Shown here one piece after another: positions 14,580 through 33,110 of a DNA stretch of 64,000 bases (position 1 is its first letter; every line of letters begins with the position of its first letter). The position numbers and the translations under genes were made by a program. Under the pieces are notes generated by a model. That model did not search any database. It was given only the letters and a program-made list of their open reading frames with translations, and was not told where the DNA came from. Origin of the DNA: Verrucomicrobiia bacterium (GTDB lineage: Bacteria > Verrucomicrobiota > Verrucomicrobiia > Verrucomicrobiales > Akkermansiaceae); contig JAUIJD010000011.1 of NCBI GenBank assembly GCA_030431475.1, positions 1 through 64,000 on the forward strand, in the 5' to 3' direction.

Positions 14580-15000
14580 ACGCACGCCGTTACAGCCGAT
14601 CCCGTGCCGACCTGTCAATCCGTAGCACGGCGGGGCGTCGTCCGGTCGAGCAGGTGGCGGAGTGGGAGAGCGGGTCGGGCCCTGTGGGGTCGGGGGCTGA
14701 GGGGCCGGGGGCCAGGCGAGGTGCGGCCATCCGGCGACCCTTCCAAAGGACCGCGTGGCTCCCGCCGCGCCCCGCACCCGTCCGGACCAGCAGCCACCTC
14801 AGCTCGCTCGACCCCAGCCCCAAAAGCCCGAACCAGCCCCCGGCCCCGCCTCGCCGTCCGTCCCCTTCGTTTCCTTCGCGTCCTTCTGTAAAAATCCAGC
14901 CCCAGCCCCCACCACCTCGGCACGGCCGCAAAGCGGCCAATCTCCCCCCGTTCAAAGTTCGATGTTGGACGTTCGATGTTGAATGTTCAGCGTAAGCGCA
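14580..15000. other. 421-bp intergenic region with low-complexity, repeat-like strings
   Basis: This is a divergent space between the b562-like gene and mutS. I see no gene. It contains a G/C-skewed stretch (14640-14735), a pyrimidine-rich 'cccttcgtttccttcgcgtc' string near 14873, and at 14951-14988 a run of related 'gttcgatgttggac' words ending at the start of mutS. Such strings look like interspersed intergenic filler. No promoter stands out. Confidence 0.5.
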
Positions 15001-17712
15001 ATGGCCGGCGGCAAGAAGCTCACCCCGATGATGGCGCAATACCAGCAGATGCGCCGCTCGCTGCCCGACGACGTCCTGCTCCTGTTCCGACTCGGCGACT
15101 TCTACGAGATGTTCTTCGAGGATGCCAACGTCGCCGCCCCGCTGCTCAACGTCGCCCTCACCCGCCGCAACTCCATCCCCATGTGCGGCGTCCCCTACCA
15201 CGCCGCCGACGCCTACATCGCCAAGCTCGTCAAGGCCGGCAAGCGCGTCGCCATCGCCGAGCAGACCACCGAGCCGCAGCCCGGGAAAATCGTCGAGCGT
15301 GAGATCACGCGCATCATTTCCGCCGGTTCGGTCATCGAGCACGCGCTGCTCGACGACGCCCGCCCGAACTTCCTCGCCGCCGTCTTCCAGCTCGGGAAAC
15401 GCTTCGGCCTCGCCTGCGTCGACCACACCACCGGCGAATTCACCGTCGCCGAGTTCGGCGCCCGCGGCTCGCTCGACGACGAACTCGCCCGCCTCACTCC
15501 CAGCGAGCTGCTCATCTCCGACGAACAACTCGAGGCCTTCGGCGCGCTGCCCGCGTCGCAGGCCTACGACGCCTTCGCCTTCCTCCCCGATCCCGCCGGC
15601 CAGCTGCTCAAGGATCACTTCGGCGTCCACTCGCTCGACGGCTACGGCTGCGCCGACATGGACGCCGCCGTCGGCGCCGCCGGGGCCGTCCTCCACTACC
15701 TCATCCACCAGCTCCGCCGCCCCTGCGAGCACCTCCGCTCGCTCAAGGTCCGCGAGGACGAAGGCATCGTCCTCATCGACGCCGCCTCGCAGGCCAACCT
15801 CGACCTCGTCGACTCCCGCTCCGGGCGAAAGCACACGCTGCTCGGCGTCCTCGACCGCACCCGCACCCCCATGGGCGCCCGGCTCCTGCGCGACTGGATC
15901 CTCCACCCCCTGCGCGACCTCGACCCCCTCGTCGCCCGCCAGGAATTCATCGCCGCCCTCCTCGCCGAGCCCTTCCTCCTCACCAAAATCCGGGAGTCCC
16001 TCCAGGGCATCCGCGACGTCGAACGCACCACCGCCCGCCTGAGCCAGGGCGCCGGCAACGCCCGCGACCTCCAGGCCCTCGCCACCTCCCTCGACCACAT
16101 CCCCGCTCTCAAGGAGGACCTCGCGAGCCTACCGATGGGAGAAGGGGTCAGGGGTCAGGGGTCAGGGGCCAGTAGCTCTCCAGATGGACCGCGAGCTTCA
16201 GCTCGCCCCGGAGCCCCAGCCGATCAACCCCAGTCCCCATTCCGCAATCCGCAATCCGCAATCCGCGATCGATTGCACGACTTCACGGAACTCACCCACC
16301 ACCTGACGACGTCGCTTTCTGAAGAACCCCCCGCCACATTGAAGGACGGCGGCCTCATCGCCGACGGCCACAGCGCCGAGCTCGACGAACTCCGCTCCGC
16401 CAGCCGCGACGGCAAGCAGTGGATCGCCAAGCTCCAGGAGGACGAGCGCAAGCGCACCGGCGTCGACAGCCTCAAGGTCAAGTTCAACAACGTCTTCGGC
16501 TACTTCATCGAGATCTCCGCCGCCAAGCTCGCCACCGCCACCCTGCCCGACGACTACACGCGCAAGCAGACCATGGCCAATGCCGAGCGCTTCATCACCC
16601 CCGCGCTCAAGGAGATGGAGAGCAAGGTCCTCGGTGCCGAAGAGCGCGCCAAGAAGCTCGAGTACGAACTCTTCCTCTCACTGCGCCAGGAAGTCTGCCA
16701 GCACCTCGACGCCCTCCAGCAGACCGCCGCCGCCATCGCCGAAATCGACGTCCTCGCCGGCCTCGCCGACACCGCCCAGACCCACCGCCACTGCCGCCCC
16801 GTCCTCGAAGAAACCCGCTACCTCGAAATCACCAACGGCCGCCACCCCGTCCTCGAGCAGACCCTCATCGACGAAAAGTTTGTCCCCAACGACACCACTT
16901 TCGTCCCGCCCCCGGATGGAGCGCCGGCTTCAGCCGGCACCACGGAGCCCGAGAGCACAACCCCAGCCACGGAGCCAGAGTCTTCACTTTCTACTTTTTA
17001 CTCGGCACTCGGCACTCCGCCGGAGGCGGCATCGCTCGTCCAAATCCTCACCGGCCCCAACATGGCGGGCAAATCCACCTACATCCGCCAGGTCGCCCTG
17101 ATCACCCTCATGGCCCAGATCGGCGCGTACGTCCCCGCCGAATCCGCCACCATCGGCCTGTGCGACCGCATCTTCTGCCGCGTCGGCGCCAGCGACGACC
17201 TCTCGCGCGGCCAGTCCACCTTCATGGTCGAGATGAACGAGACCGCGCTCATCCTCAACCACGCCACCGACCGCAGCCTCGTCATCCTCGACGAGATCGG
17301 CCGCGGCACCGCGACCTTCGACGGCCTCTCCATCGCCTGGGCCGTCGCCGAGCACCTCCACGACGAGATCCGCTGCCGCACCCTCTTCGCCACCCACTAC
17401 CACGAGCTCACCGACCTCGCCGAGACCCGCCCCGCCGTCGCCAACTTCAACGTCGCCGTCCGCGAGTGGAACGACGAGATCATCTTCCTAAGGAAGATCG
17501 TCGAAGGCGCCGCCGACAAGTCCTACGGCATCCAGGTCGCCCGCCTCGCCGGCCTCCCCAAGCCCATCATCGACCGCGCCAAGGACATCCTCAGCCACCT
17601 CGAGATGCACTCCGCCAAGCCCGACGCCAAGAAGCGCGGCCCCAAGGCGAAGAATACCAGACCCCGTGATCTCCCGGAACCGAACCCGCCTCAACTCGAT
17701 CTTTTTGATTAG
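15001..17712 (+). CDS. mutS: DNA mismatch repair protein MutS with two in-frame insertions
   Basis: 903 residues from the ATG at 15001; an in-frame ATG at 14983 lies inside repeat-like DNA and is less likely. The N-terminal mismatch-binding motif is present (LGDFYEMFFEDA, the F-x-E site). The Walker A TGPNMAGKST, Walker B VILDEIGRGT and FATHYHELT are all intact, and the tail ends PPQLDLFD, a beta-clamp-binding motif. Two extra segments are absent from E. coli MutS: ~45 residues at 16135-16269 (core domain, before RLHDFTEL) and ~42 residues at 16912-17034 (just before the P-loop strand). Both are low-complexity and their DNA looks like intergenic repeats. Every catalytic motif is kept, so the gene is probably functional. 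Confidence 0.95.
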   Translation: MAGGKKLTPMMAQYQQMRRSLPDDVLLLFRLGDFYEMFFEDANVAAPLLNVALTRRNSIPMCGVPYHAADAYIAKLVKAGKRVAIAEQTTEPQPGKIVEREITRIISAGSVIEHALLDDARPNFLAAVFQLGKRFGLACVDHTTGEFTVAEFGARGSLDDELARLTPSELLISDEQLEAFGALPASQAYDAFAFLPDPAGQLLKDHFGVHSLDGYGCADMDAAVGAAGAVLHYLIHQLRRPCEHLRSLKVREDEGIVLIDAASQANLDLVDSRSGRKHTLLGVLDRTRTPMGARLLRDWILHPLRDLDPLVARQEFIAALLAEPFLLTKIRESLQGIRDVERTTARLSQGAGNARDLQALATSLDHIPALKEDLASLPMGEGVRGQGSGASSSPDGPRASARPGAPADQPQSPFRNPQSAIRDRLHDFTELTHHLTTSLSEEPPATLKDGGLIADGHSAELDELRSASRDGKQWIAKLQEDERKRTGVDSLKVKFNNVFGYFIEISAAKLATATLPDDYTRKQTMANAERFITPALKEMESKVLGAEERAKKLEYELFLSLRQEVCQHLDALQQTAAAIAEIDVLAGLADTAQTHRHCRPVLEETRYLEITNGRHPVLEQTLIDEKFVPNDTTFVPPPDGAPASAGTTEPESTTPATEPESSLSTFYSALGTPPEAASLVQILTGPNMAGKSTYIRQVALITLMAQIGAYVPAESATIGLCDRIFCRVGASDDLSRGQSTFMVEMNETALILNHATDRSLVILDEIGRGTATFDGLSIAWAVAEHLHDEIRCRTLFATHYHELTDLAETRPAVANFNVAVREWNDEIIFLRKIVEGAADKSYGIQVARLAGLPKPIIDRAKDILSHLEMHSAKPDAKKRGPKAKNTRPRDLPEPNPPQLDLFD
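16135..16269 (+). repeat. Repeat-like insertion 1 inside mutS
   Basis: It contains three 'ggggtca' units (16145-16166), a palindrome gcgagc-ttca-gctcgc (16191-16206) followed by a 'cggagcc' tail, and three tandem 'atccgca' units (16249-16265). It is in frame throughout. Confidence 0.65.
16912..17034 (+). repeat. Repeat-like insertion 2 inside mutS
   Basis: It contains the palindrome gccggc-ttca-gccggc (16923-16938), preceded by 'ggatggagc' and followed by 'ccacggagccc'. This is the same layout as insertion 1. A 'cactttctactttttactcg' string and tandem 'cggcact' follow. Confidence 0.65.
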
Positions 17713-17906: not shown

Positions 17907-19031
17907 ATGGAGGGATTTCACGCCGGTTACTGGGTCAAGCGAGCGGGCTACCGCAGCTTCGAACCCAGCCCGATCAACCGAACTTGGAAGATCGATGATC
18001 CGCGAATCCTCGAAAGTCTCAGCCGTGCCGACCGCCAGCTCGGGCGCCTCGACATGTTTTCCGAGTACGTGCCGAACCTTGATCTGTTCATTCGGATGCA
18101 CGTCGCCAAGGAGGCGACCAAGTCCTCCCGCATCGAGGACACCCGCACCGAGATTGAGGAGGCGATCCTCCCGGAAGAGGAGATCGATCCGGAACGCCGC
18201 GACGACTGGAAAGAGGTCAACAATTACATCGATGCCCTCAACGACGCCCGGGCCTCGCTCGCCGATCTCCCCCTGTCTCTCCGCATGCTCTCTCAGGCCC
18301 ACGCCACGCTAATGACCGGCGTCCGCGGCCAAAGCAAACTCCCCGGCGAGTTCCGCCGCAGCCAGAACTGGATCGGCGGCTCGAACCCCGGGAACGCCCG
18401 CTTCGTTCCGCCCATCCATGACAACGTTCCGGAACTGATGGGCGATCTCGAGAACTTCGCCCACAACGACGAGCTCCATCTCCCGCCACTGATCCGCGCC
18501 GCGATCCTCCACTATCAGTTCGAGACCATCCACCCCTTCCTCGACGGCAACGGCCGGATCGGGCGCCTTCTGATACCCCTGTTCCTCATCTCCAGCGGCA
18601 TTCTCAAGGCCCCCGTCCTCTACCTCTCCGATTACCTCGAGCGCCACCGGGCGGAGTACTACGAGCGCCTTACCCTTGTCCGGGAAAAGAACGACATCGC
18701 CGGCTGGCTCCACTTCTTCCTCGATGGAGTCGCAGAAACCGCCGCCCAGGGCGTCACCACCTTCGATCAGATCCTCAAGTTCCGCCAACACTGGGAAACC
18801 GAGATCGCCCGCTGGCCGCGACACTCGAAGGCCGGTGCGATCCTGCTCCCCCACCTCTTCTCAAAACTCTGGGTCAACGCCGCCGGCGTCGCCGAAGTCA
18901 CCGGTGTCTCGACTCCAACCGCCTACAAGATCATCGAAACCTTCACCCAAGCCGGCCTCCTCCGCGAGATCACCGGCGCCCAACGCGGCCGACTCTACCT
19001 CTTCGAACCCTACCTCAACCTCTTCAAATGA
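17907..19031 (+). CDS. Fic family AMPylase with C-terminal winged-helix domain
   Basis: 374 residues. The N-terminal Fic_N-like domain (~1-110) carries the stretch EATKSSRIED, which resembles the (S/T)xxxE(G/N) inhibitory helix but has Asp after the Glu. The Fic core has a complete active-site motif HPFLDGNGRIGRLL (~residues 207-220), so transfer of AMP to a target hydroxyl is possible. Residues ~310-370 form a wHTH (VAEVTGVSTPTAYKIIETF). Such proteins are widespread single-gene regulators or toxin-like enzymes. No antitoxin gene is adjacent; the inhibitory helix would act in cis. The flanking family C repeats and AT-rich leader fit recent acquisition. Confidence 0.92.
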   Translation: MEGFHAGYWVKRAGYRSFEPSPINRTWKIDDPRILESLSRADRQLGRLDMFSEYVPNLDLFIRMHVAKEATKSSRIEDTRTEIEEAILPEEEIDPERRDDWKEVNNYIDALNDARASLADLPLSLRMLSQAHATLMTGVRGQSKLPGEFRRSQNWIGGSNPGNARFVPPIHDNVPELMGDLENFAHNDELHLPPLIRAAILHYQFETIHPFLDGNGRIGRLLIPLFLISSGILKAPVLYLSDYLERHRAEYYERLTLVREKNDIAGWLHFFLDGVAETAAQGVTTFDQILKFRQHWETEIARWPRHSKAGAILLPHLFSKLWVNAAGVAEVTGVSTPTAYKIIETFTQAGLLREITGAQRGRLYLFEPYLNLFK

Positions 19032-24027: not shown

Positions 24028-25044
24028 ATGGCTCGTCCCGTCCGCTACGAAGCCGCTGGAGCGGTTTACCACGTGATGGCGCGTGGTGAGGGAGGCAAGG
24101 ACGTGTTCGAGGATGACACCGATCGGACCGTCTGGTTGGAGCGCCTGGGCGAGGTGTGCGGCAGCTATGGCTGGCGGATTCATGCGTGGGTGATGATGGG
24201 AAACCATTTCCACCTGTTGCTCGAAACGCCCGAACCGAATCTTGTGGCTGGAATGAAGTGGTTCATGGGCGTTTACGCCCAAGGGTGGAATCGACGGCGA
24301 AAGCGCCGCGGACACGTGTTCCAGGGCCGCTACAAGGCGGTGGTGGTCAATGGTGAGGGCAGCGGGGTGTATTTCCGGATTGTGGCGGACTACATTCATC
24401 TCAATCCAGTGCGTTCCGGTTGGGTGGGAGGAGCGACCGGCAAGCGCCTCATTGATTGGCGTTGGAGCAGTTTCCCGACCTATGCGGGAAGGAAGGCGCC
24501 GGAGTGGTTGGTCACAGGGCGGGTGCTTGAGGCCTTCGAGCTTGCGGAGGGCCGGCGAGGCCGGCGGGCCTATGCGCGCTATCTGGAGGCACGGGCGAAG
24601 GATCGCGATGGAGCGCTGAGCGATGATTCGCTGAAGGCCCTGCGCCGGGGATGGTATCTCGGAGATGCCGACTTTGGGGATCGACTGCTGGTGATGCTGA
24701 AACCCGACGTGACGAAGAGACGCCGCAAGGGAAGTCTGCGCGGCGCGGCGGCGCGGGCGCATGACGTCGCGGAGGCCGAACGGTTGGTACGGGCCGGACT
24801 GGAGTGGATGGGCCTGCCAGCGAAGCCGAAGGATCTGGCGGGGAGAGGGCGTTGGTTGGATGAGAAGGCGATCTTGGCGAGCCTAGTTCGGGCGCGGACG
24901 GGAGTGCGCAATGCCTGGGTGGCAGAGCGCCTGGCGATGGGAACCGAGGGAAACGTCACGCGGGCTCTGCGTCGGGTTCGTGAGGAGCAGGCATTGATCA
25001 GAAAACGGAAGAAGTGCGAGCAAATGCTCGAAAAACGGGACTGA
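24028..25044 (+). CDS. REP-associated tyrosine transposase (RAYT / TnpA-REP)
   Basis: 338 residues. It is a Y1-type HUH transposase: the N-terminus is VRYEAAGAVYHVMARG, the HUH motif GNHFHLLLE lies at ~71-79, and the nucleophilic Tyr is in GVYAQGWNRR (~96), followed by GHVFQGRYKAVVV. A C-terminal extension of ~150 residues is longer than the minimal family. These enzymes recognise REP hairpins. Here inverted REPs flank the gene (23963-23993 and 25018-25053), and the downstream REP supplies the last codons (MLEKRD and the TGA stop). The gene looks intact, so it may be responsible for the family D copies nearby. Confidence 0.92.
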   Translation: MARPVRYEAAGAVYHVMARGEGGKDVFEDDTDRTVWLERLGEVCGSYGWRIHAWVMMGNHFHLLLETPEPNLVAGMKWFMGVYAQGWNRRRKRRGHVFQGRYKAVVVNGEGSGVYFRIVADYIHLNPVRSGWVGGATGKRLIDWRWSSFPTYAGRKAPEWLVTGRVLEAFELAEGRRGRRAYARYLEARAKDRDGALSDDSLKALRRGWYLGDADFGDRLLVMLKPDVTKRRRKGSLRGAAARAHDVAEAERLVRAGLEWMGLPAKPKDLAGRGRWLDEKAILASLVRARTGVRNAWVAERLAMGTEGNVTRALRRVREEQALIRKRKKCEQMLEKRD

Positions 25045-26554: not shown

Positions 26555-26794
26555 GTCAGAGGAATCGGTCCTTGAAATGCGGCGTTGGGACACCGAGACC
26601 GTTTCCCTGCGCCCCTTCAGGGCTCGGGTTCCTGGGAGGCAAGCGACCCCGGGGTGAACCCCGGGGCTATGTCCCGACGTCCCGTTGGGACTGAAGATGG
26701 GGTTGAAGGTCGGTTCCGATTCTCGGAGGCCCCAAGCGTGAAGATCGCGGGCGTCCGGCTGATCCGGGCTGCCGGCTGCCTGATCGGCAAAAGT
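26555..26794 (+). repeat. Long repeat (family E) unit 2, full 240 bp
   Basis: It runs from gtcagaggaatcggtccttg to cctgatcggcaaaa. Internal hairpins are gaccccggggtgaaccccgg (plus ggc) and cgtcccgttgggac. It is almost identical to unit 4 at 30638. Short open frames through it have no coding character. Confidence 0.9.
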
Positions 26795-30637: not shown

Positions 30638-30877
30638 GTCAGAGGGGTCGGTCCTTGAAATGCGGCGTTGGGACAACGAGACCGTTTCCCTGCGCCCCTT
30701 CAGGGCTCGGGTTCCTGGGAGGCAAGCGACCCTGGGGTGAACCCCGGGGCTATGTCCCGACGTCCCGTTGGGACTGAAGATGGGGTTGAAGGTCGGTTCC
30801 GATTCTCGGAGGCCCCAAGCGTGAAGATCGCGGGCGTCCGGCTGATCCGGGCTGCCGGCTGCCTGATCGGCGAAAGT
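30638..30877 (+). repeat. Long repeat (family E) unit 4, full 240 bp, bounded by short inverted repeats
   Basis: It is near-identical to unit 2 at 26555-26794, the same 240-bp length and orientation. It is flanked by ccgcgtttc (30628-30636) and gaaacgcgg (30878-30886), a perfect 9-bp inverted repeat. Confidence 0.88.
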
Positions 30878-32980: not shown

Positions 32981-33110
32981 CAGTCCCGAAGGGACGCCGG
33001 GCAATAGCCCCGGGGTTCACCCCGGGGTCGCTTGCTCCAAGAGACCCGAGCCCCGGAGGGGCGCAGGGAAACGGTCTCGTTGTCCGAACGCCGCATTTCG
33101 CGGACCGACT
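32981..33110 (-). repeat. Long repeat (family E), inverted partial copy
   Basis: The reverse complement of the middle and head of the 240-bp unit, including ggttcaccccggggtcgctt, gcgcagggaaacggtctcgt and ccgaacgccgcatttc. It is more diverged than units 1-4. Beyond it, 33111-33353 shows nothing recognisable except another 'gagacccctt' fragment. Confidence 0.78.

Follow-up and report, generated by a model that had tools for sequence, protein, structure and literature searches.

Introduction

Short palindromes read in frame inside bacterial genes have been described before. The main text of Di Nocera et al. (2013; PMC3733652) reports in-frame intragenic repetitive extragenic palindromes (REPs), many of them in replication and repair genes such as uvrA, DnaE2, DNA ligase and RNA helicases; in Opitutus terrae (Verrucomicrobia) both uvrA genes carry them, they are associated with REP-associated tyrosine transposases (RAYTs), and the authors speculate on mutators arising from REPs in repair genes. 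Related systems, as the open-access texts describe them (figures and supplements aside), are the REP doublets forming hairpins (REPINs), inverted hairpin pairs that occur as several families per genome, each bracketing its own RAYT with HuH and Y..NP motifs (PMC3116915; PMC6006769); the Rickettsia palindromic elements, palindromic repeat DNA lying in frame in unrelated conserved genes (PMC10969869); and the heptameric repeats of Xanthomonas and Nostoc, which are dispersed as tandem 7-mers and enriched in intergenic DNA (PMC4692102). Here we describe a stretch of 64,000 nucleotides (hereafter the window) from a Verrucomicrobiia bacterium of the family Akkermansiaceae (assembly GCA_030431475.1, contig JAUIJD010000011.1), in which mutS carries two in-frame inserts that are mosaics of heptanucleotide repeats (heptads) and 21-23 nt hairpins with a GGA[GC] foot. 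We consider it highly probable that dispersed, probably mobile repeat DNA entered two loops of mutS, is translated as tolerated flexible loops, and has been refilled in each species.

Each of the described systems resembles the mutS inserts in part. Like REPs, the hairpins are stem-loops of 20-40 nt, dispersed and mostly intergenic, and since their foot is GGAG or GGAC, not GTAG or GTGG, we file them as REP-like elements with another foot, outside the GTAG super-family. The intragenic REPs of Di Nocera et al. have GTAG or CGTC feet, whereas ours form a mosaic with heptads whose turnover at one site can be followed across species; the main text of that paper, gene lists of Figure 7B and Additional file 3 aside, contains no occurrence of "mutS", "heptamer", "GGAG" or "GGAC". 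As in REPtrons and REPINs, the hairpins bracket a REP-associated tyrosine transposase gene and form inverted doublets, although those in mutS are single; the foot differs from GT[AG]G ("GGAG" has no occurrence in the text of PMC6006769), and several copies lie inside conserved genes. Odd feet are known, however, as the same text mentions "atypical" flanking structures in some RAYT classes, e.g., a CnGA foot in class 3. The Rickettsia elements share with ours a palindromic insert in conserved genes, in frame as judged from the sequence; they are about 150 bp long, encode a conserved peptide and belong to Rickettsia, whereas the elements described here lack a CGTC foot, encode differing peptides with none fixed, occur in Verrucomicrobiales and have a linked transposase. 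Finally, our heptads are 7-nt tandem units, dispersed and mostly intergenic, like those of Xanthomonas and Nostoc; instead of the GGGNATC type the units are GGGGTCA, AATCCGC and ACTCGGC, several types stand side by side, and they are fused to REP-like hairpins and read in frame mid-gene. Since intragenic REPs and Rickettsia elements were already known, the mutS case is a variant of a known phenomenon. Our searches of open-access texts, figures and supplements aside, returned no earlier report of mutS inserts, and what is new, as far as we have seen, is the mutS target, the heptad and REP mosaic, the GGA[GC] foot and the cross-species turnover.

Results

Two in-frame inserts in mutS

The mutS frame is open to position 17712 from 14983 or 15001, and its product is a full-length MutS by two NCBIfam models (PRK05399, 979 bits against a cut-off of 480; TIGR01070, 909 bits against 641.7). 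An AlphaFold2 (AF2) model built from 29 MutS sequences matches E. coli MutS structures (e.g., 1ng9, 1e3m) over nearly the whole length, with a mean predicted local distance difference test score (pLDDT) of 84.1 and 537 of 903 residues at or above 90. Insert 1 reaches from LASL (codons 374-377) to LHDF (codon 425 on) and has 47 codons as compared to 8 in the relative G016, while insert 2, between TTFVP (632-636) and SLVQ (678 on), has 41 as compared to about 2, a net gain of 39 residues each. Two in-frame inserts had been proposed in an initial annotation made from the letters of the window, at 16135-16269 and 16912-17034. The open frame, the collapse of the codon signature, the low-pLDDT loops and the added length all uphold that proposal, and the location was right, the true limits being slightly wider (Table 1).

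The inserts stand apart in both codon usage and predicted structure. A codon log-odds score, with the remaining long open reading frames (ORFs) of the window as training set, runs mostly at +0.5 to +1.0 along mutS and drops to -0.74 in insert 1 and -0.29 in insert 2. These are the deepest dips among 25 long ORFs of the window with the first 15% of each excluded; some ORFs dip equally deep at the 5' end, where the stop-to-stop frame exceeds the gene. In the AF2 model, pLDDT falls below 50 at residues 383-413 and 641-675, while flanking ten-residue blocks score 89-97 on both sides of insert 1 and 73-77 before and 82-93 after insert 2. The model places the first loop between two predicted helices and the second between two strands (630-634 and 680-684), of which the downstream one runs into Walker A; as originally noted, insert 2 adjoins this strand. 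The MutS fold and motifs are intact. Thus the inserts are predicted as low-confidence, apparently floppy loops of MutS.

The elements first named in the inserts are all present, i.e., the hairpins, CGGAGCC, the GGGGTCA and AATCCGC units and the ACTTTCTACTTTTTACTCGGCACTCGGCACTC string. ATGGACCGC lies at 16184 and ATGGAGCGC at 16916, and the pattern GATGGANCGCNNGCTTCAGCNNGC, with up to three mismatches allowed, occurs twice in the window against 0.06 expected, both times in mutS and with no mismatch. CGGAGCC is found at 16209, at 16943 and in a third copy at 16970; alone, it is common (26 places in the window, both strands). From the degenerate heptads of insert 2, which have dispersed relatives elsewhere in the genome, Tandem Repeats Finder (TRF) gives only the final 2.6 units, and a stricter lag-7 scan missed them. 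That scan also did not pick up a weak repeat just upstream of mutS, in which 18 of 25 positions are equal at lag 7.

MutS among relatives

MutS matches were found in 54 genomes, the window genome included; the window protein is closest to those of genomes in its own GTDB genus. From these, 40 others were taken and 39 aligned with the window protein (40 proteins); left out were G052, in which the motif was absent from the stretch taken, and 13 further genomes. Both inserts occur in 4 of the 40, namely the window, G017, G002 and G014, the last three being species of the same genus, and the frame is open through both in all four. At site 2 the other 36 proteins have a single short loop. Site 1 is variable in length, with a short AATCAAC-type heptad piece in G008 and G011 and a similar-looking one in G029, of the same family. 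The segments are thus absent or different in close relatives, and they are not conserved across the order. A tree of the nearly gap-free MutS core places the four carriers on one side of a modestly supported branch (79/60), with G014 and G016 not separable beside the other three carriers. Since the carriers lie on one side of one branch, one gain per site, then remodelling, is enough, and the suggestion of two independent insertions is not borne out.

Remodelling is apparent even between close species. The MutS cores of the window and G017 have 0.256 synonymous (dS) and 0.040 nonsynonymous (dN) substitutions per site and 91.8% nucleotide identity, whereas 79 aligned codons of the inserts are 62% identical even with forced alignment. 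In insert 1 the two share the hairpin and the heptads to its left, but to its right one has AATCCGC heptads and the other CACTTCT/CACTCGG; insert 2 holds a different hairpin type in each of the two, the change extending to both arms. These values indicate that the MutS core is under purifying selection while insert content differs between species. They also bear on a possible artefact, i.e., that misassembly or contamination put intergenic DNA into mutS. The window genome is a draft of 109 contigs, but three other genomes, including the single 5.68 Mb contig of G002, have these sites filled too, and with the frame open in all four and the core under purifying selection we find such an artefact barely credible.

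Two whole genomes of the same genus, G001 and G006, have no MutS match even at E 1e-5, while MutL and PriA are present. No other genome of the genus has as many Y1 transposase matches as these two (21 and 28). Their missing MutS reflects either assembly gaps or true loss.

Dispersed copies of the insert DNA

The window comprises bases 1-64000 of contig 27 of a 4.73 Mb draft genome (G000). Further matches in this genome at E <= 0.01 number at least 19 for insert 1 (40 of 59 first-look candidates scored) and at least 24 for insert 2 (40 of 74 scored). Many sit in non-coding surroundings, and most matches to insert 1 stem from its AATCCGC array. Neither insert is single-copy, and both are built from modules that also lie between genes, as the initial likening to intergenic repeats had it. 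The hairpin pattern has 21 matches in the genome versus 7 for a reversed control, and dispersed hairpins often form inverted pairs, several of them in G000. A perfect-stem scan around TTCA yielded 48 contexts; in the dominant type, GGA[GC]CG followed by a 6 bp stem and TTCA, the stems vary between copies yet stay paired.

With insert 2 of G017 as query, five genomes were searched: G002 gave 63 matches, G017 28 and G014 23 (mutS included), whereas G016 and G010, both without the mutS inserts, gave none. Among the 63 matches in G002 are 19 opposite-strand pairs less than 80 bp apart, picked by eye and then checked. Hairpins were further counted by a tag rule derived from the mutS and dispersed copies, not from transposase flanks, in 400 kb samples that were evenly spaced in G002 and G010 and chosen without regard to hits in G000. 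Intergenic tagged hairpins numbered 17 in G002, 9 in G000 and 1 in G010, and intergenic heptad arrays 3, 4 and 1, respectively, with none in shuffled sequence. The 14 tagged hairpins of the G000 sample comprised the 9 intergenic ones, 1 at a gene edge and 4 called interior, which look like chance matches in ordinary coding sequence. Four of its five heptad arrays were intergenic, and the fifth (L328), called interior, lies upstream of the conserved part of rpe (ribulose-phosphate epimerase). An earlier sample of 20 stretches of G000 was mostly centred on known hits, which biases its rates upward.

Hairpins and RAYT genes

A Y1 transposase gene of G014 has four hairpins on each side, three of them matching the insert 1 hairpin exactly and the fourth differing in a loop base. 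Among the 18 RAYTs nearest to it, 12 are flanked within 300 bp by tagged hairpins on both sides, 2 on one side and 4 on neither, the background density being 1.2-6.2 per 100 kb; 11 of the 12 doubly bracketed genes have an identical hairpin on both sides. One of five more distant RAYTs is bracketed and four are not, a truncated locus being uncounted. All three RAYTs tested pass the cut-off of NF047646 (REP-associated tyrosine transposase) and match PF01797, and the motifs NH[VI]H and Y[VI]xxNP are present in 24 of 24 RAYT loci.

Nine tagged hairpins lie in the mutS inserts of the four species, all in one frame and on one strand. Seven are identical to RAYT-bracketing hairpins of the genus and two differ by one base; since they are the same as hairpins bracketing RAYT genes, we regard them as REP-like elements. 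For three of the seven, the matching RAYT lies in the same genome (2 of 2 in G014, 1 of 3 in G002). Tagged-hairpin hits in mutS of G012 and G042 differ from RAYT-bracketing hairpins by 11 and 9 bases and were set aside as chance. The description of the inserts as non-coding filler consequently needs amending: the codon signature is indeed non-coding, but the palindromes are no anonymous filler, being REP-like and of a type that brackets RAYT genes. Matches to the G014-type RAYT subfamily (E <= 1e-15) number 10 in the window genome, 8 in G017, 5 in G002, 4 in G014 and 1 in G010, while G016, G012 and G005 have none; among the genomes that lack the two mutS inserts, several also have them, e.g., G001 (5) and G006, G008 and G015 (4 each).

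These identities also weigh upon the idea that the inserts arose by local growth only, through expansion of tandem repeats and palindromes inside mutS with no mobile element. The heptad arrays are tandem and variable, and heptamers are dispersed in unrelated bacteria too (PMC4692102, open-access text), as such growth would lead one to expect. However, the hairpins are identical to dispersed RAYT-bracketing copies, and between species the hairpin type at one site is swapped with both arms together; we therefore hold purely local growth to be distinctly unlikely.

Further repeats and transposase genes were observed nearby or in relatives. A second hairpin type, TAGCCCCGGGGTTCACCCCGGGG-like and with a TAG-containing foot, occurs at 33015 and 37102 of the window, and similar hairpins adjoin other Y1 transposase genes (L303, L306). 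Positions 24064-24399 of the window match Y1_Tnp (IS200-like transposase; E 1.8e-9) within a 349-codon frame. At L302 and L306 (G000 contigs 36 and 47), Y1 transposase genes are flanked by very long heptad-like tandem arrays, hinting at a link between heptads and RAYT loci. Hairpin GGAGCGCCGATTATGAAATCGGC, a RAYT-bracketing type of the window genome, lies in G002 close to the 5' end of a helicase-like gene (L258:19858).

Comparable segments in other genes

Other genes, none of them sought by function, came to light through matches to the mutS segments across the genome and through dips of the codon score in a sample centred on hits. Comparable in-frame segments were found in the same genome in uvrA, priA, dnaE2 (error-prone polymerase), hrpA (RNA helicase) and purL/Q, as well as in a carboxynorspermidine decarboxylase, a ribokinase-like kinase (below the curated cut-off) and a PQQ-repeat-like protein (named by sequence reading); a dehydrogenase-like protein, also named by sequence reading and with no NCBIfam match, has a lone 21 nt hairpin read as GAPASAG. 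The initial annotation had singled out mutS as unusual, and mutS is exceptional in having two inserts, yet it is not alone. A double UvrA of 1972 codons (L228:10807-16722, G000 contig 34) contains three low-coding interior segments, one of them matched twice by mutS-insert DNA, and an ATCCGAA-type heptad array near its 3' end. The priA segment lies directly before Walker A. In an alignment of PriA from 15 of 18 genomes, this site holds differing repeat-like material in the window genome, G017 (including a GAPASAG hairpin), G002, G013 and G008, low-complexity sequence in G001, and a short loop in G014, G010, G015, G003, G009, G012, G007, G004 and G016.

In 17 of 47 genome matches with scored flanks, strand and frame agreed between the two sides, part of which is expected by chance. 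Several of the 17 were rejected as inserts: C31:23767 has an internal stop, C35:85917, C107:89620 and C63:31121 are located at gene starts, and C48:34336 and C42:38118 were not convincing. QueA (C17:16253) was likewise rejected, its loop varying in all 18 genomes and being of similar length in the window genome; heptads here replaced a loop instead of adding one. The segment-bearing genes, a small set found without regard to function, seem to include an excess of repair genes.

Considering that DNA-maintenance genes such as uvrA, priA and dnaE2 also carry segments, that the same leaning is reported for other bacteria in the main text of PMC3733652, that one insert adjoins Walker A, and that all nine mutS hairpins have a common frame and strand, the inserts might be selected disordered linkers, recruited from available repeats, that tune MutS (DNA clamping, ATPase, MutL contact or mutation rate). 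Such selection is difficult to reconcile with insert length and content that vary between close species, with a non-coding codon signature, and with insert codons that diverge far faster than the MutS core. The common frame, for its part, may be inherited or least harmful, as a stop interrupts the TTCA-type hairpin in one of its reverse frames. On balance a selected linker seems unlikely to us.

Table 1. Positions in the window of mutS, its inserts and the repeats within and beside them.
Feature	Position	Strand	Remarks
mutS coding sequence	15001..17712	+	903 codons from ATG at 15001; further in-frame ATG at 14983
Insert 1	16132..16272	+	codons 378-424; heptads, REP, heptads
Insert 2	16909..17031	+	codons 637-677; REP, spacer, degenerate heptads
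Heptad array, unit GGGGTCA	16143..16172	+	4.3 copies; TRF and lag-7 scan
REP-like hairpin GGACC-GCGAGC-TTCA-GCTCGC	16186..16206	+	read in frame as GPRASAR; identical to RAYT-bracketing hairpins in G014
Heptad array, unit AATCCGC	16241..16270	+	4.3 copies; TRF and lag-7 scan
REP-like hairpin GGAGC-GCCGGC-TTCA-GCCGGC	16918..16938	+	read in frame as GAPASAG; identical to RAYT-bracketing hairpins in G008
Degenerate heptads ACTTTCT ACTTTTT ACTCGGC ACTCGGC ACTC	16986..17017	+	the ACTTTCTACTTTTTACTCGGCACTCGGCACTC string; 20/25 positions equal at lag 7
Weak heptad-like repeat GTTCGAT GTTGGAC GTTCGAT GTTGAAT	14957..14988	.	just 5' of mutS; TRF period 14

Elsewhere in the window, the segment just 3' of mutS (17907-19031) encodes a Fic-family-like protein with a HPFLDGNGRIGR motif. 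The same short tandem repeat (period 17) occurs in two copies about 4 kb apart, at 26743-26778 and 30826-30861.

Discussion

The course of events that we favor would begin with the spread, mostly between genes, of REP-like hairpins of the RAYT-bracketing kind and of heptanucleotide tandem arrays. Two loops of mutS would have received such repeat DNA, the simplest assumption being that this happened in the common ancestor of a small clade of a single genus, and the surviving copies would be those with a length that is a multiple of three and a frame without a stop. They may survive because the product is a flexible loop rich in Ala, Ser, Pro, Gly and Arg that leaves the MutS fold and motifs intact. 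Within the permissive loop, hairpins of different RAYT families and heptad types could afterwards replace or join each other, and since the loop stays permissive, the insert would differ in each species. We infer that RAYTs delivered the hairpins and that the loops are translated and tolerated; the heptad arrays presumably grew by slippage or template switching.

Several observations weigh against entry of mobile repeats into the two loops. RAYT genes and mutS inserts do not go strictly together: G008 has four RAYTs of the G014-type subfamily, and both of those examined are bracketed, one of them by the insert 2 hairpin type, yet its mutS has no tagged hairpin, and such RAYTs occur in another eight genomes in which MutS is without the two inserts. 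In the window genome neither of its own mutS hairpin types was found at the nine RAYT flanks checked (of 10); the source RAYT has been lost, is the one remaining RAYT, or was active in an ancestor. Neither a transposition event nor a target-site footprint was observed, the mutS hairpins are single and not paired, and we know of no mover of the heptads. Site 1 is a length-variable loop anyway, with an extension of its own in G023, a member of another genus, and the contrast in abundance between genomes with and without the inserts stands on two negative genomes, G016 and G010. Finally, the 400 kb sample of G000 held no convincing intragenic hairpin or heptad array; such cases are therefore rare, and mutS, with two, is exceptional.

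The loops of mutS, uvrA, priA and dnaE2 could conceivably be recurrent, preferred sites of landing or retention, with altered repair raising mutation or recombination and so favoring spread of the elements. We regard this as improbable, but if true, mobile repeats would retune host repair enzymes from inside the protein. The mutS inserts would show a route from repeat DNA to protein sequence, and they widen the range of REP foot sequences found in print. Moreover, the carriers form a natural series: in closely related species, one of them with its genome in a single contig, a mismatch-repair protein has different repeats in the same two loops, and most of these repeats can be traced to a transposase family. 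This series makes it testable whether REP inserts in repair genes are neutral passengers or changers of the mutation rate, as was speculated in the main text of the 2013 study (PMC3733652).

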